Origin: Peptostreptococcus porci
GTDB taxonomy: Bacteria > Bacillota > Clostridia > Peptostreptococcales > Peptostreptococcaceae
Reading direction: 5' to 3'
NCBI RefSeq assembly: GCF_009695815.1
Contig: NZ_VUNE01000001.1
Location: 186,001 to 250,000 of the forward strand
DNA: 64,000 bases
Shown: positions 25,536 through 32,877 of the stretch, in pieces
Numbering within the stretch: the first letter of the stretch is position 1
Layout of the letters: each line of letters begins with the position of its first letter
Translations under genes and position numbers: made by a program
The notes under the pieces: model-generated
What the model saw: the letters and a program-made list of their open reading frames with translations, nothing else
What the model was told of the DNA's origin: nothing
Database searches by the model: none

Positions 25536-26591
25536 ATGAAAAAGCATTTTAAAAAATTAATAAAGATAGCTTTCGTATTTGTTCTAGGCTTTGTATTGAC
25601 TTTATCCTCAGCTTCTGCAAATACAACACTCTACGGGCCAGCTGGTAGTGACAGTGATCAAACAATTGTTAATATATATCTGGCCAAAGAGCTGTTGGAT
25701 AGTACAGCCAAAGCGGATGGTGATACTATTATTGCTGATGCTTCGACAAATGAAAAATACAGAAGGCTTGAAAATAGGAGCCTTCTTATTTGGAAGATCG
25801 ACAATCATATAGAGGGTACGAAAGAGGAAATAGACAAACAAAAATTTTATATTGCCAGTAAGCTGGAGAAGTTAAAAAATAATGAACTGACAGAAAAATA
25901 TGGTCAGCCTTTTAAATCGAATAATTCTGATAAGAATGGACATATCAAGCAAGCATTAAAAAAAGGTGCAACCTACTATGTAAGGGAAAATATTTCTGAT
26001 GAGCAAGTCAAATCTATTGTATCGAGCTTTGTAATAGTCACAAGTAGAAATTCCACAAGTGAATTAGACATTTACAGTAAGTCTGTATACAAGCCAAGAA
26101 TTACAAAAGGTAATAGGTTTGTAAAGGTTGATTTCGAAAATACAAGTAAGCGTCTTAAAGGTGCAATATTTAGAATTGAGGAGAAATCAGGAGACTCTTA
26201 CAAAGCTGTCTTAAAAAATGGAGTGCAGTATGTAGTTTCATCAGATGAAAATGGTGAATTCATTGTAGATGGACTAACACAAGGCACGTACTACTTATTT
26301 GAGGTAAAGGCTCCGACGGGATACCTTCAATTATCGTCTCCGATAGAGTTTAAAGTAGGTGGAGATTATAGTCAAGATGATGTATTAATGATTAAAAATA
26401 AAATCGACACAGACTATGGTGGAGGTAAACAACATGATTCGAGAAATGATGGAAGTGGCAGTGGTGCTAGTGATGGCAAAATATCAATACCAAAGACAGG
26501 GGACATAATGCTACTATTACTTACCATAGGAGGCGTGCTTGTGGCATCATTGGGTCATTTACTTCTTAGAGATAAAAAAGAAAGCTACTAA
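25536..26591 (+). CDS. Minor pilin, probable pilus base subunit
   Basis: 351-residue secreted protein with signal peptide (FKKLIKIAFVFVLGFVLTL, then SSASA), an N-terminal domain of about 170 residues, one SpaA/CnaB domain (about 195-285; KGAIFRIEEKSG ... YYLFEVKAPTGY), a Gly/Ser/Asp-rich linker and the sorting signal IPKTGD with a membrane helix and charged tail. No YPKN-type pilin motif is visible, so it probably cannot extend a fibre; its small size and position suggest the basal subunit that ends polymerisation and links the pilus to the wall. RBS GGAGA. It follows the shaft pilin by 26 bases. Confidence 0.85.
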   Translation: MKKHFKKLIKIAFVFVLGFVLTLSSASANTTLYGPAGSDSDQTIVNIYLAKELLDSTAKADGDTIIADASTNEKYRRLENRSLLIWKIDNHIEGTKEEIDKQKFYIASKLEKLKNNELTEKYGQPFKSNNSDKNGHIKQALKKGATYYVRENISDEQVKSIVSSFVIVTSRNSTSELDIYSKSVYKPRITKGNRFVKVDFENTSKRLKGAIFRIEEKSGDSYKAVLKNGVQYVVSSDENGEFIVDGLTQGTYYLFEVKAPTGYLQLSSPIEFKVGGDYSQDDVLMIKNKIDTDYGGGKQHDSRNDGSGSGASDGKISIPKTGDIMLLLLTIGGVLVASLGHLLLRDKKESY

Positions 26592-26621
26592 AATATATTA
26601 TCGAGATACGCTGACTTTGAT

Positions 26622-27503
26622 ATGTTGTTTCGAGAAAAAGTGAAGAAGATGAGCGAAAATACAAAACATACAATAAAAAAAACAAGAAAAAGGAAGAAAA
26701 AACAATGGCCCTTTATAATTATATTTATATTGGGGCTGTTGGTTTTATCGTATCCGCTGGTGTCACGCTTTTATTATAGAGTGGAGTCTACACAACAAGT
26801 GAAGTCTTTTGATAATAAAAAGAAAGAGCTGACGGCAGATGAAATAAAAAACAGAATTGATTTGGCTCGTGCCTATAACAAATCGTTAATCAATCTTATC
26901 TCAACAGATCCATATGTAAAAAAAAAGTTGGAGGCGGGTAGAAAAGAGTACGGTCGTATGCTGGAAATCAACGAGCAGATGGGACATATAGAAATACCTA
27001 AGCTTGATGTTGATATACCTATCTATGCGGGAACTAATGAGGAAGTTCTTCAAAAAGGTGCAGGTCATTTGGAAGGAACATCTCTTCCAGTCGGTGGAGC
27101 TAGCACTCATACAGTTATAACAGCTCATTCAGGGCTTCCGACCGCCAAGCTTTTTACGGATCTATCAAAATTGAAGATGGGAGATAAATTTTTCATACAT
27201 AATTTATCTCAGGTACTTGCTTACGAGGTCGATCGGATAAAGACAGTTGAACCTTCGAACTTCAGCGATTTGCTAATAGATTCAAATAGAGATCAGGCAA
27301 CGCTTCTCACTTGTACACCAATAATGATAAATACTCACAGGTTACTGGTGAGAGGGCATAGAGTACCATATAATCCAAATGAGTTTGTTTCTATGAACAG
27401 GAATAACAAGCTGATTTTCTGGTTAAAGGTTGCCGGATTTATTCTATTGATATTTTTAATGGCATTGTGGCTATATAGAAAAACAAAAAAGAAGGCAAGG
27501 TAA
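26622..27503 (+). CDS. Class C (pilin) sortase 1
   Basis: Membrane transpeptidase that joins pilins. 293 residues from ATG 26622 (a second ATG at 26649 is equally possible; neither has a strong RBS). N-terminal Lys/Arg-rich region and membrane helix, lid motif DPY (STDPYVKK), catalytic His169 (ITAHSG), Cys231 (LLTCTP) and Arg240, and a second membrane helix with basic tail at the C-terminus; this is class C architecture. It is closely related to the next sortase (shared PIYAGTNEEVLQKGAG-H and EGTSLPVGG blocks), so the two arose by duplication. It lies 30 bases after the basal pilin. Confidence 0.92.
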   Translation: MLFREKVKKMSENTKHTIKKTRKRKKKQWPFIIIFILGLLVLSYPLVSRFYYRVESTQQVKSFDNKKKELTADEIKNRIDLARAYNKSLINLISTDPYVKKKLEAGRKEYGRMLEINEQMGHIEIPKLDVDIPIYAGTNEEVLQKGAGHLEGTSLPVGGASTHTVITAHSGLPTAKLFTDLSKLKMGDKFFIHNLSQVLAYEVDRIKTVEPSNFSDLLIDSNRDQATLLTCTPIMINTHRLLVRGHRVPYNPNEFVSMNRNNKLIFWLKVAGFILLIFLMALWLYRKTKKKAR

Positions 27504-27849
27504 CTGAGTGAATTAAGATGTAAATCGATATAGAATAGATTTATTATAAATTATGAAATTAATGCAGTCAATAAAACAATAAATTAATAAATAAATATAA
27601 ACAATAAAATAAATAAACATAGACAACAAAATAAATGAAAATCAATAAAAAGTACATTATATAGGGCTGGAATTCACCGGCCCTATATAGGTTTATATAA
27701 TTGCAATAATGTACTATTGTCATTATATAAGCCTATATAGGAGTCGATTGAGCACATGAAAAATCAAAAAGTGACAGATTATAGGTGAAGCTTATTGCAA
27801 TAAAGATATACGTAGCTTATCGTAAAAGTAATGGAAGTAGGATGGAAAT
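27504..27849 (+). other. Intergenic region between sortases 1 and 2 with a strong hairpin
   Basis: Contains A-rich low-complexity DNA (27540-27650), then ATATAGGGCTGG...CCGGCCCTATAT at about 27659-27688, a near-perfect hairpin without a proper T run. A partial copy of its right arm, CCTATATAGG, recurs near 27742. It may be a terminator or processing site, and sortase 2 may be separately expressed. Confidence 0.5.
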
Positions 27850-28809
27850 ATGAAAATTCTAAATAGAAAAATGAGTGTTAAAAGGAATGTCAATCGAAAA
27901 AGCAGAAAAACAAAAAATAAATCTAAAAAGAAGATGATGAAAATATGGAAGTATGAGGTAGACCAAAAAATTGTGTTTGGTGTGATTTTTATATTTGGAT
28001 TTTTGATAGCAATATATCCCATTATATCTCAGATGTACTATAGTGTTGAATCTACTCAAGAGATAGAGGATTTTGAAACGACTAGAAAGAAGCTGGATGA
28101 AATAGAAATCAACAAAAAAATTGAACTGGCAAAGGCATACAATTCATCGCTTAAGCCTACGAGCTTCGCTGATCCATATAGAAAAAAGCAGAAAGAAGGC
28201 ATCGCAGAATATGCCAGAATGCTTGAGGTTCATGAAAAAATAGGTTATGTTCATATTCCAAAGATAAAGCAAAAATTGCCAATTTATGCAGGAACTAATG
28301 AGGAAGTGCTTCAGAAAGGAGCAGGGCATATGGAGGGGACATCCTTGCCTGTTGGTGGTTCTAGTACGCATACGGTAATAACAGCACATAGAGGTCTTCC
28401 TAGTGCAACAATGTTTAGATATATTGATAGGTTAAAAAAGGGCGATATTTTCTACATTCATAATGTCAGGGATATACTTGCATATAAGGTAGATAGAGTT
28501 ATTACAGTTAACCCATCTGATTTTGATCCAATTTTAGTTTCTCCAGGAAGTGATAATGCGACACTGCTTACTTGTACACCTTATATGATAAATTCACATA
28601 GGCTATTGGTTACAGGTCACAGAGTTCCATATGTTGCACCTAAAAAAACTATTGATGAAGTTGTGCCATTTGTATGGCTGAAAAACTTATATGTATTTAT
28701 TGTGGTTATGATTTTTTTAGTGCTTTTGATACTTTATTTGTTTAATAGATGGCTGAAATCCAATGATATCAAAATCAAAAATAAAAGTGTAGTCAAAAGA
28801 GAGGTTTGA
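27850..28809 (+). CDS. Class C (pilin) sortase 2
   Basis: 319-residue class C sortase. Long Lys/Arg-rich N-terminus before the first membrane helix, lid motif DPY (FADPYRKK), His180 (ITAHRG), Cys242 (LLTCTP), Arg251, C-terminal membrane helix and charged tail. A later in-frame ATG (27871) would remove only basic residues. Differences from sortase 1 include Arg instead of Ser after the catalytic His. It overlaps the next sortase gene by one base (TGATG), so these two are translationally coupled. The presence of two class C enzymes suggests separate jobs in shaft polymerisation and minor pilin addition. Confidence 0.92.
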   Translation: MKILNRKMSVKRNVNRKSRKTKNKSKKKMMKIWKYEVDQKIVFGVIFIFGFLIAIYPIISQMYYSVESTQEIEDFETTRKKLDEIEINKKIELAKAYNSSLKPTSFADPYRKKQKEGIAEYARMLEVHEKIGYVHIPKIKQKLPIYAGTNEEVLQKGAGHMEGTSLPVGGSSTHTVITAHRGLPSATMFRYIDRLKKGDIFYIHNVRDILAYKVDRVITVNPSDFDPILVSPGSDNATLLTCTPYMINSHRLLVTGHRVPYVAPKKTIDEVVPFVWLKNLYVFIVVMIFLVLLILYLFNRWLKSNDIKIKNKSVVKREV

Positions 28810-29657
28810 TGAAAATGAAGATAAAGAAAATAATAGGGCATTTACTTATAATAGTAGGTATCTGTATTCCACTACAGGCATTTACTCAGATAACTATAAA
28901 AGACCTAACATCATCATTAGAATACAAAAAATATCAGAAGCAGTATAGCAAGGAAAGCTTTGAAAAAAACAATATCGCAAAAGCTTTTATAAAATATGAC
29001 GAATCTGTCGTAGATGGTTATGGCTTAGTAGACCCTTTTGTAGCTGATGATTACAAGAGTGACTATCAAATAAAAGACTGGAAAAAAGACCAGATTTTTG
29101 GATATTTGTTGATACCATCTATAGATGTTAAGTATCCTATTAGATTGGATGCAACCTATGACAACTTGGATAAGGGTGTGGCTCATATTTACGGAACTTC
29201 ACTACCAACTGGCGGAAAAGACAGACGAAGTGTGATTGCAGGTCATAGAGGGTGGTATAGAGGAATAATGCTTTTGAATTTGGGAAAGGTAAAACCTGGC
29301 GACAAGGTGTTTATTGATAGAAATGGAGATCTATTGACGTATGAGGTTAAAGATATTGAAATAATAAGTCCATCTCAATGGGAAAAGCTAAAGCCGATAA
29401 AAGATAAGGATATGTTGACAATATTATCATGCCATCCGATTAGACCGCCAAGCCCATATAGGATGCTAGTAAACTGTGAAAGAGTGGAAGATAAGAGCGA
29501 GAAAAAAGAAATTACAAAACAAATTGATGACAAAATTAATAAAGAAAAACAAAGACCAATTTGGTCCAAATATGTTTTCTATTCGGTTACAATAGTAGGG
29601 TGGCTCTTGATAATGTATAGAGCTTGGAGAATTGTGACCGAGATAAGAAAAAAATAA
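28809..29657 (+). CDS. Sortase 3, divergent
   Basis: 282-residue sortase with an N-terminal membrane helix (LLIIVGICIPLQAF), His146 (VIAGHRGWYRG), Cys208 (TILSCHP) and Arg218 (SPYRMLV), and a C-terminal membrane helix. A DPF sequence (GLVDPFVADD) may be a lid. The active-site strand LSCHPIRPPSPYR differs clearly from the TCTP-type strand in sortases 1 and 2, so it probably recognises another sorting signal or does the wall-anchoring step. ATG at 28809 overlaps the stop of sortase 2; AGAGAGG precedes it. Class C-like by its two membrane helices, but class is uncertain. Confidence 0.85.
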   Translation: MKMKIKKIIGHLLIIVGICIPLQAFTQITIKDLTSSLEYKKYQKQYSKESFEKNNIAKAFIKYDESVVDGYGLVDPFVADDYKSDYQIKDWKKDQIFGYLLIPSIDVKYPIRLDATYDNLDKGVAHIYGTSLPTGGKDRRSVIAGHRGWYRGIMLLNLGKVKPGDKVFIDRNGDLLTYEVKDIEIISPSQWEKLKPIKDKDMLTILSCHPIRPPSPYRMLVNCERVEDKSEKKEITKQIDDKINKEKQRPIWSKYVFYSVTIVGWLLIMYRAWRIVTEIRKK

Positions 29658-29876: not shown

Positions 29877-30167
29877 ATGTTAAATAGTAGTTCAATGGAA
29901 GAGTATGAGGCATATGCAGAGGTTTTGAAAGCTATTTCTCATCCAGTTAGATTGTGTATAGTAAAAGGGTTAATTGAAAACGGACCCAAAAATGTGACGA
30001 ATATGTATTCTTGTTTGGGAGTACCTCAGTCAACTATTTCTCAACATATATCAAAGATGAAATCAGCAGGTATTATTAAGGGTGAAAGAAATGGAACTGA
30101 AATCACATATTCAGTTGATAACGAAAAAATAGAAAAGCTGATAAAATGTCTATTTGATTTAAAGTAA
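29877..30167 (+). CDS. ArsR/SmtB-family regulator, candidate persulfide sensor
   Basis: 96-residue winged-helix repressor. Helix-turn-helix region GVPQSTISQHISKMKSAGIIKG and wing ERNGTEITYSV are typical. Start at 29877 follows GGAGG. There is no CxC metal box of ArsR and no obvious SmtB His/Asp site. Instead it has Cys27 in helix 2 (HPVRLCIVKGL), Cys46, and Cys91 in the last helix (LIKCLFDL). A helix-2/helix-5 Cys pair is how BigR/SqrR proteins sense persulfides, and the next genes handle sulfane sulfur, so that role is the best inference. Probably autoregulated. Confidence 0.85.
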   Translation: MLNSSSMEEYEAYAEVLKAISHPVRLCIVKGLIENGPKNVTNMYSCLGVPQSTISQHISKMKSAGIIKGERNGTEITYSVDNEKIEKLIKCLFDLK

Positions 30168-30310
30168 TAGCATAGTGATAAGAAAACTGTTTGCTTTAAA
30201 TCAGCATAGAATATTTAAAGAAGCATAAAAGCTTCAAAACAGTGTAAAAACTTCAAAACAGTATAAAAATATTTGAAAGATAAAAAAACTATTTGAGGAG
30301 GTAAGGTTTT

Positions 30311-32044
30311 ATGAAAAAAATACTTATTGTCGGCGGTGTGGCTGGTGGTGCTACTGCTGCAGCACGTTTGAGGAGACTTGATGAAAAGTCTCAGATAATA
30401 ATGTTCGAAAGAGGCGAATATATATCTTTTGCAAACTGTGGTTTGCCATACTATATTGGAAATGTAATTGAAAACAGAGATGCACTTTTGGTACAGACTG
30501 TTGAAGGAATGAAAAAGAGATTTAATCTGGACATTAGAAACTTTAGTGAAGTTGTATCCATAGATGCTGAAAAAATGGAAGTAACAGTGAACAATCTGAG
30601 CACTGGTGAGACATATGTGGAAAAATATGATGAATTGATTTTATCTCCTGGTGCGAGTCCAATCAAACCACCGATAACAGGTATTGCTGATGCCGATAAT
30701 ATTTTTACTTTGAGAAATATACCAGATACTGATGCCATAAAGAGCTTTGTCGACACAAAAAATCCAAAGGAAGCTGTCGTTGTAGGTGGTGGATTTATAG
30801 GTATTGAAATGGCAGAAAACCTTGCTGAAAGAGGTGTTAGGGTTCATTTAGTTGAAATGCTTAATCAAGTGATGGCTCCAATTGATTTTGAAATGGCTCA
30901 AATCGTACATAAGCACATGGTTGAAAAAGGTGTGGACTTGATTTTGGGAGATGGGGTAGACTCATTTGATGAAAATGGAAGAGTTGTTAAATTAAAGAGT
31001 GGTAGGAAAATAAATTCTGACATTACTATTTTATCTATTGGGATAAGACCAGAAAATGAGCTTGCAAAATCAGCAGGGCTTGAGTTAGGTGATAGAGGTC
31101 ACATAAGAGTAAACGAAAACTTTGAAACTTCCAAACCACATATTTATGCGGTTGGAGATGCGATAGAAACTCAAGGCTTGATTTATGGAGAAGCATCTAG
31201 TATTGCTCTTGCGTCACCGGCAAATAGACAGGCAAGAATTGTTGCAGATAGAATTAATGGAATAGATAGTAAATATAAGGGAGTTTTAGGAACTTCGGTT
31301 GCAAAGGTATTTGATTTGACAGTTTCATCTACTGGGTATAATGAAAAGAAGCTTAAAAATATGGGTAAAAATGATTTCAAATCTATTCATATCCATCCAC
31401 TTTCAAATGCAGGATATTATCCAACTGCCAGACCACTTGATTTGAAATTGATTTTTGAAATTCCTTCTGGACGAGTTTTGGGTGCACAAGCAATTGGTGA
31501 GGTAGGTGTTGAAAAAAGAATAGATGTAATTGCGACTGCAATCGCTGCAAAAATGACAGTAAGAGATCTTCAAGAGCTAGAGCTATCATATGCTCCACCA
31601 TTTTCTTCAGCAAAAGACCCGGTTAATATGGCTGGTTATGTGGCATCGAATATCTTGGATGGAATTGAAACGGTATCAGTTATGGAAATAGATGATATAG
31701 TTGGAAAAGGCGGATATTTGATAGATGTCAGAACAGTGGGTGAATTTATGGCTGGTTCAATGCCTGGTGCTGTAAACATCCCTCTTGACGAGTTGAGAGA
31801 CAGATTGGATGAGATACCAAAAGATAAAGATATTTACATCAATTGTCAAGTTGGTTTGAGAGGATATCTGGCAGTTAGAATACTGAAAAATAATGGTATA
31901 AATGCAGTGAATGTAGATGGTGGATATAAATCATATAGACAATTGAAATTCGGTGTTGAAGAAGATAAGACTGAGAATACACCTACTTTATCAGGTATAG
32001 CTTGCACCGACAATTCAGATGTATTAAAAAAAAAGAAAAGTTAA
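30311..32044 (+). CDS. CoA-disulfide reductase / rhodanese fusion
   Basis: FAD-dependent enzyme reducing CoA disulfide or CoA/protein persulfides with NAD(P)H. 577 residues. The N-terminal FAD motif VGGVAGGATAAARLRRL is followed by redox Cys43 (SFANCGLPYYIG), the position known for CoA-disulfide reductases. A second Rossmann motif (VVGGGFIGIEMAENL) binds NAD(P)H, then a dimerisation domain (about 325-440). A C-terminal rhodanese domain carries Cys512 in CQVGLR. RBS GGAGG. The gene ends in an A9 run with a -1 overlapping frame that encodes TusA and DsrE domains; in related four-domain proteins of about 800 residues these are one chain, so the stop at 32042 may be bypassed by frameshifting. Confidence 0.93.
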   Translation: MKKILIVGGVAGGATAAARLRRLDEKSQIIMFERGEYISFANCGLPYYIGNVIENRDALLVQTVEGMKKRFNLDIRNFSEVVSIDAEKMEVTVNNLSTGETYVEKYDELILSPGASPIKPPITGIADADNIFTLRNIPDTDAIKSFVDTKNPKEAVVVGGGFIGIEMAENLAERGVRVHLVEMLNQVMAPIDFEMAQIVHKHMVEKGVDLILGDGVDSFDENGRVVKLKSGRKINSDITILSIGIRPENELAKSAGLELGDRGHIRVNENFETSKPHIYAVGDAIETQGLIYGEASSIALASPANRQARIVADRINGIDSKYKGVLGTSVAKVFDLTVSSTGYNEKKLKNMGKNDFKSIHIHPLSNAGYYPTARPLDLKLIFEIPSGRVLGAQAIGEVGVEKRIDVIATAIAAKMTVRDLQELELSYAPPFSSAKDPVNMAGYVASNILDGIETVSVMEIDDIVGKGGYLIDVRTVGEFMAGSMPGAVNIPLDELRDRLDEIPKDKDIYINCQVGLRGYLAVRILKNNGINAVNVDGGYKSYRQLKFGVEEDKTENTPTLSGIACTDNSDVLKKKKS

Positions 32045-32877
32045 GCGATAAAATAGATGCTATGGAGTTGAATGACTGTAAAGATTTAAGAGCAGATGTC
32101 AATAACGATAGTGAAAATACGAAGAGAATCTTTGTTGATGCTAGAGGGCTGCAGTGTCCAGGTCCTATTGCCAGAGTTTTTGAAGAATTAGATAAGGCAA
32201 ATTACGGTGATATAGTAGAGGTAATGGCAACCGATGTCGGATTTTCGAAAGATATTTCATCTTGGTGTGCAAGGATGGGGTACAATCTCATAGGGTTGAC
32301 AAGTGAATCTGGAGTAATAAAAGCTCAAATTGAAAAAAATGAGAAAACTGATATCAAAAAAGAATGCTTGATAAATTCGACAAATTCCATGCTTATAAAT
32401 CCACAAGACAAGAAAAAAGCAACAATGGTTGTGTTTAGTGGAGATTTAGATAAAGCGATTGCGTCATTTATCATTGCAACTGGGGCAGCATCAATGGGTA
32501 AGGAAGTGACGATGTTTTTTACATTCTGGGGGCTTAATATATTGAGAAAAAGTAGCTCGAGAGTTGAGAAAAACGGAATCGAAAAAATGTTCGGAATGAT
32601 GATGCCAAAAGGTGTAGATAAGCTGAAAATTTCAAAAATGAATATGGGTGGCATTGGCACAAAGCTAATCAAGCTAGTGATGAAAAACAAAAACGTCGAT
32701 GATTTAGGCTTTATGATGTCGAGGGCGCAAAAGATGGGTGTGAAATTTGTCGCTTGCTCAATGAGTATGGATATCATGGGAATAAAGGCTGAGGAATTGG
32801 TTGATGGTGTTGAAATTGCAGGTGTAGCAAGTTATTTATCAGAAGCAGAGGAAGGTAATCTGAATCTATTTATATAG
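32002..32877 (+). CDS. TusA-DsrE sulfur-carrier domains, -1 frame continuation of the CoA-disulfide reductase
   Basis: Encodes a TusA/SirA-like domain (DARGLQCPGPIARVFEEL; the Cys-Pro pair carries persulfide) followed by a DsrE-like domain (TMVVFSGDLDKAIASFIIATGAAS ... FVACSMSMDIMG, with a conserved Cys). The open frame begins inside the previous gene. Candidate starts (TTG 32002, ATG 32062) have no ribosome binding site. Via a -1 shift at A AAA AAG (32029-32035) it would be joined to the reductase-rhodanese to give about 855 residues. Alternatives: translational coupling with a separate start, or a recent 1-base indel or sequencing error. Confidence 0.85.
   Translation: MHRQFRCIKKKEKLSDKIDAMELNDCKDLRADVNNDSENTKRIFVDARGLQCPGPIARVFEELDKANYGDIVEVMATDVGFSKDISSWCARMGYNLIGLTSESGVIKAQIEKNEKTDIKKECLINSTNSMLINPQDKKKATMVVFSGDLDKAIASFIIATGAASMGKEVTMFFTFWGLNILRKSSSRVEKNGIEKMFGMMMPKGVDKLKISKMNMGGIGTKLIKLVMKNKNVDDLGFMMSRAQKMGVKFVACSMSMDIMGIKAEELVDGVEIAGVASYLSEAEEGNLNLFI
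32029..32035 (+). promoter_or_regulatory. Candidate -1 frameshift site A AAA AAG
   Basis: In the reductase frame the codons are AAA (32030) and AAG (32033), preceded by A, exactly the dnaX-type slippery heptamer inside an A9 run (32026-32034). The A9 run could alternatively cause transcriptional slippage. I see no strong downstream stem-loop. Confidence 0.5.

Follow-up and report, generated by a model that had tools for sequence, protein, structure and literature searches.

A candidate two-product CoA-persulfide reductase gene with a poly-A tract in Peptostreptococcus porci

The window analysed here is a stretch of 64,000 nucleotides within the 2.16 Mb genome of Peptostreptococcus porci (contig NZ_VUNE01000001.1, positions 186,001 to 250,000). 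It contains a CoA-disulfide reductase-rhodanese-TusA-DsrE2 gene that is divided between two reading frames at a run of nine A residues. With moderate confidence, we interpret this locus as one gene with two products, made through slippage of RNA polymerase on the A9 tract. By default, translation would give a 577-aa reductase-rhodanese ending at a stop codon seven bases past the tract. Slippage of the polymerase on A9 would alter some of the transcripts, and the ones that gained a single A (or 3n+1) would lead into the TusA-DsrE2 frame, giving an 855-aa protein with its own sulfur carriers. A -1 ribosomal slippage on the heptamer A_AAA_AAG may contribute. Slippage in vivo, its rate and the need for both forms are points that we infer from the sequence comparisons presented below.

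The divided gene

The reductase-rhodanese frame (ORF1) was originally predicted to stop just after the A9 run, and this is the arrangement found (Table 1); the junction reads ...GTA TTA AAA AAA AAG AAA AGT TAA in frame 0. Likewise, the heptamer lies in register with ORF1, at 32029-32035, and the open stretch of the -1 frame starts at about 31975, spans the A9 run and extends to the stop at 32877. The computed product of a transcript with one additional A, or of a -1 shift, has 855 residues, the size that had been estimated. ORF1 matches the Pyr_redox_2, Pyr_redox_dim and Rhodanese domains and ORF2 matches TusA and DrsE_2. The four domains are therefore spread here over two frames, and the fusion protein that joins them is a predicted one.

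Table 1. Features of the divided gene and its surroundings (positions in the window)
Feature	Position	Strand	Remarks
ArsR-family regulator gene	29877..30167	+	upstream; conserved next to the reductase gene
Strong ribosome-binding site region of ORF1 (GAGGAGGTAAGG)	30293..30304	+	pairing -12.8 kcal/mol
ORF1, CoA-disulfide reductase + rhodanese, predicted short form	30311..32044	+	C43 and C512 present; solved homologues 3icr, 8a56
TTG in -1 frame, candidate start	32002..32004	+	in sp. D1, closed off by a TGA in frame
A9 tract, putative site of transcriptional slippage, holding most of A_AAA_AAG	32026..32034	+	same tract in Peptostreptococcus sp. D1
ORF2, -1 frame part (280 aa after the tract): linker, TusA, linker, DsrE2	32035..32877	+	domain matches, purifying selection
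Frame-0 stop TAA ending the short form	32042..32044	+	seven bases past the tract
ATG in -1 frame, candidate independent start	32062..32064	+	no SD; TTG in sp. D1

Distribution of the break and selection on the second half

Nine Peptostreptococcus genomes, one per species, were compared. The gene is split at A9 in two of them, P. porci and Peptostreptococcus sp. D1, whose ORF1 protein is 96% identical and whose A9 break is the same. Three species encode a single frame of 828-844 aa (G002 with A9, G004 and G005 with A10). In three more, the C-terminal half is lost and ORF1 ends at 576-582 aa: G001, which keeps a TusA remnant, G003, where the tract is A7 and a TAA close behind it ends the frame, and G006. 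The ninth genome, G008, has no close copy of the gene. Conservation of the break and the A run in close relatives, raised as a check with the original prediction, was thus observed in sp. D1; the three species with one intact frame have an A9 or A10 run and no break. The tract difference from these three species is real, fixed and frame-changing. In a tree of ORF1, both split species group as a single clade (support 100/100), and G001, which lost the half, pairs with the intact G005, indicating that the C-terminal half was lost at least twice. Since three sister species live without it, this half is dispensable in the genus.

Relatives had been expected to carry the four domains in one protein of about 800 residues. 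This was borne out by the congeners (about 830 aa) and by the order, where 108 of the 129 genomes matching the C-terminal half have an open frame of at least 800 aa. Besides the two split species, the rest comprise loci at contig edges, DsrE2 genes standing alone, TusA and DsrE2 in separate ORFs, a partial match (G104) and a stop elsewhere. Among these 129 genomes, no such break was found outside the genus. G129 looked split by length and was rejected as a similar case, its stop lying inside the reductase and its linker being intact; the locus concerned (L180) is a four-domain gene with one in-frame TAA within the reductase domain. Five genomes (G040, G047, G058, G110 and G146) carry TusA and DsrE2 as separate neighbouring ORFs, an unfused version of the set.

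A one-base indel introduced by assembly or sequencing had also been considered as the origin of the break. Homopolymer indels are common errors, and a further frame break exists in the genome, in an asparagine-synthetase-like gene near G000:C1:801378. We nevertheless regard this origin as very improbable, because a second species, 4% apart in the ORF1 protein, has the identical A9 break. Tract and frame-break statistics, drawn from 820 kb of contig C1, gave just one other break at a run of at least eight A residues; an assembly riddled with homopolymer errors was rejected on this ground, and, with its recurrence in sp. D1, the present break exceeds what chance would give. That other break belongs to a MATE-like pseudogene with further damage (G000:C1:348730, outside the window): the transporter gene has one frame break at an A8 run and probably a further one downstream of it, and looks like a true pseudogene. 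The break in the asparagine-synthetase-like gene, also outside the window (G000:C1, about 801378-801420), is located near a short T run and could be a pseudogene, an error or a polymorphism.

Between the two split species, dN/dS was 0.05 for the first half and 0.086 for the second, the values for the second half ranging from about 0.06 to 0.09. The second half showed 63 synonymous and 29 non-synonymous changes; with a neutral expectation of 80%, 29 of 92 non-synonymous changes has a P of about 2e-23. For TusA-DsrE2 alone, dN was 0.033 and dS 0.53, and the 5' part of the ORF2 linker was poorly conserved (omega 0.57). Assuming one break shared by descent, on which this test depends, the C-terminal half has apparently been kept by strong purifying selection since the two species diverged. 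If the breaks were recent and separate in the two species, the selection seen could pre-date them. Constraint was slightly weaker on the second half than on the first (Fisher P 0.036), as expected if it is made in smaller amounts or is less needed. In the split pair, dN of the C-terminal half was somewhat raised, its ratio to that of the N-terminal half being 2.15 versus about 1.1-1.2 among the intact congeners. Along with the poorly conserved linker part, the dispensability of the half and a split state known from two species, this counts against the slippage reading. With selection evident on both halves, the gene does not appear to be dead, the MATE-like pseudogene serving as a contrast.

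Routes to the second half

The joining of the domains by a programmed -1 frameshift, as originally proposed, stood in part: recoding into one four-domain protein is the most likely outcome, while a ribosomal shift is not supported as its main mechanism. Such a shift at A_AAA_AAG, of the Escherichia coli dnaX type, would give the long form from the A9 mRNA itself, and the heptamer is exactly in register and conserved in sp. D1. We consider it an unlikely main route, as several observations speak against it. Downstream, no RNA structure beyond that of shuffled sequences is common to both split species (z between +0.9 and -1.8 in the window). The upstream SD-like stimulator is absent (+0.4 kcal/mol), and the register at the tract differs among orthologues. 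Work by Tsuchihashi and Brown in 1992 reportedly tied the strength of the heptamer in E. coli to the unstable pairing of tRNA-Lys with AAG. In the present genome, decoding of AAG does not fall to tRNA-Lys(UUU) alone, two tRNA-Lys(CUU) genes that should read this codon properly being found besides it. In the tRNA clusters of G000:C4 and C6, ARAGORN calls a tRNA-Pyl (CTA), whose offset anticodon position suggests a mis-set tRNA-Arg(UCU).

The absence of a stimulator, the tRNA-Lys(CUU) genes and the register differences together favour slippage of RNA polymerase over a -1 ribosomal shift. Slippage of the A9 run during transcription, which had been named as an option, is thereby preferred; on sequence grounds it is the likeliest route, and both a short and a long form, as predicted, are expected from it. 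Register variation among orthologues is regarded as a sign of transcriptional realignment by Antonov et al. (PMC3711429), and frameshifting reached 40% with a 9-A cassette tested in E. coli reporters (PMC3711429). In many bacterial genomes A9 is the length at which slippage-prone runs become selected against (PMC1088944). In 724 kb of coding sequence of the P. porci genome, we counted 584 A7, 135 A8 and 14 A9 runs, and none of A10 or longer.

Alternatively, the second half could be a separate protein of 250-290 aa, translated beyond the ORF1 stop through reinitiation or from an internal ATG 32062 or TTG 32068. Each half would then work as a protein of its own, as happens in relatives whose tusA and dsrE2 genes are separate, such as the five genomes of the order mentioned above, and ATG 32062 is positioned only 17 nt past the stop. 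The original prediction that neither TTG 32002 nor ATG 32062 has a ribosome-binding site was upheld, with SD pairing energies of -3.8 and -1.1 kcal/mol respectively, to be compared with -12.8 for ORF1 and with -8.7, the median over 359 long ORFs; the value for ATG 32062 is weaker than in 95% of the calibration genes. Nor are the candidate codons conserved in sp. D1, where the ATG is a TTG and where TTG 32002 is followed two codons on by a TGA in the same frame. By SD pairing and comparison with sp. D1, the second gene has no ribosome-binding site of its own and no conserved start. An internal promoter for ORF2 was rejected, promoter-like matches being no commoner than in shuffles. An own start for the second half is accordingly considered unlikely, and the lack of both a ribosome-binding site and a conserved start makes recoding the best account.

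Slippage could also act at the DNA level, the tract gaining and losing A residues during replication, so that both isolates would have been caught in a short-only phase. Tract lengths do vary in the genus (A7, A7, A7, A9, A9, A9, A10 and A10), but they are an identical A9 in both split species, and a cytosolic metabolism gene is not a typical contingency locus. We hold such phase variation to be improbable.

Recoding of the transcript is also compatible with the state of the tract across the genus. The five species with the full gene, split in two of them, have A9, A10, A10, A9 and A9 at the same linker; in other genera, the region examined contains A7 at most (25 loci). Each of the five has one register that leads to the long protein, and the other registers stop within about 5 codons, giving products of 572-580 aa (frames computed for longer and shorter transcript tracts). 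For G002, G004 and G005, either off-frame runs into a stop within two codons, as occurs after 2-3% of the A6-A8 runs of the P. porci genome; these three cases are not independent, the species being related. Where the C-terminal half has been lost, in three species, the short form is all that is encoded. This pattern would fit a site that always makes a short form, and could instead reflect a slippery hot spot drifting between states. Tentatively, the A9-A10 linker tract may be a kept two-product switch, whose default flipped between species according to register and which collapsed to short-only in three; we see this as a possible but doubtful extension of the slippage reading.

Predicted products and comparable systems

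Among solved structures, ORF1 is closest to the CoADR-rhodanese 3icr (588 aa) and the CoA-persulfide reductase 8a56 (571 aa), which match its residues 2-543 and 1-546 respectively. In the alignment, C43 and C512 take the places of the active-site cysteines of CoADR-Rhd enzymes; the catalytic cysteines of the Enterococcus faecalis CoAPR are C42 and C508 (PMC9405070). Against NCBIfam, ORF1 scored 541 with TIGR03385 (cut-off 579) and passed NF010037. On account of the match to 3icr and 8a56, the short form is predicted to be a complete enzyme of a known kind, the CoA-persulfide-reductase type composed of reductase and rhodanese. It has the whole domain set of these proteins and both catalytic cysteines. 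The solved enzymes are stand-alone two-domain proteins, whereas TusA and DsrE2 can be appended in the Peptostreptococcus gene.

Enzymes of this family probably reduce CoA persulfide with NAD(P)H, sulfur passing through the rhodanese cysteine, and TusA and DsrE-type proteins are sulfur carriers. The same reduction scheme is proposed for CoA-persulfide reductases in PMC9405070. In the long form, sulfur bound to the rhodanese may thus be handed on to the TusA and DsrE2 of the same protein, and the short form may mainly release sulfide. A four-domain homologue of Bacteroides fragilis, BF638R_0572, shares with the long form its four domains and their order (CoADR-rhodanese-TusA-DsrE) and affects diamide tolerance (PMC6158253). 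It differs in being described there as one product with all four domains, a frame break being unmentioned.

The P. porci locus resembles the dnaX gene of Thermus thermophilus and the two-ORF dnaX of Chlorobi (PMC1088944, PMC3711429), which have a late A9-A10 tract, a stop near it in the remaining frames, a short and a long product, and orthologues with the tract in frame or with two ORFs. In T. thermophilus, half of the dnaX product is the short one, made via A9 (PMC1088944). The dnaX systems differ in belonging to a DNA polymerase family and not to sulfur metabolism, and in that slippage in Peptostreptococcus is a prediction. In tssM1 of Citrobacter rodentium and tssM3 of Yersinia pseudotuberculosis, a poly-A run likewise stands right before a premature stop; the default is short and slippage gives the long product in one species, and the reverse holds in the other (PMC4256274). 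Within the genus Peptostreptococcus, both of these states are represented. The C. rodentium run is A11 and not A9, and both forms are needed there, those of Peptostreptococcus being predicted.

Three sequence marks of the poly-A slippage class are present at this locus: a run of at least nine A residues at the break (also in sp. D1), a shift that restores a full-length protein of 855 aa as known from relatives and, assuming one shared break, an omega of 0.086 beyond it. Our literature search returned no paper on slippage in Peptostreptococcus and no report for this gene family. The best reading is that of a known kind of event, poly-A slippage with two products, in a gene family for which no report was found. 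Gene callers would label such a locus as a truncated gene next to an orphan or pseudogene. As both parts are kept, the sole TusA-DsrE2 of the organism probably relies on an unorthodox read-out. For a metabolic enzyme of anaerobes, the occurrence of intact, split and collapsed states in one genus offers a natural test of how slippage sites originate, flip their default and decay.

A search of the genome revealed no second copy of the TusA-DsrE2 half. A second CoADR-rhodanese paralogue is present at G000:C5:148544-150157, a 606 aa open frame with 44% identity, in one frame and without TusA-DsrE2.

An ArsR-family gene lies upstream of the reductase gene here and in most of the 17 orthologous loci compared, this one included. 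It is conserved as a neighbour across the family, also where species have lost the C-terminal half, which is consistent with putative sulfur-responsive control. Elsewhere in the window, positions 25536-29657 hold a probable pilus locus, in which three tandem sortase-like genes come after that of a surface protein carrying an IPKTG anchor.
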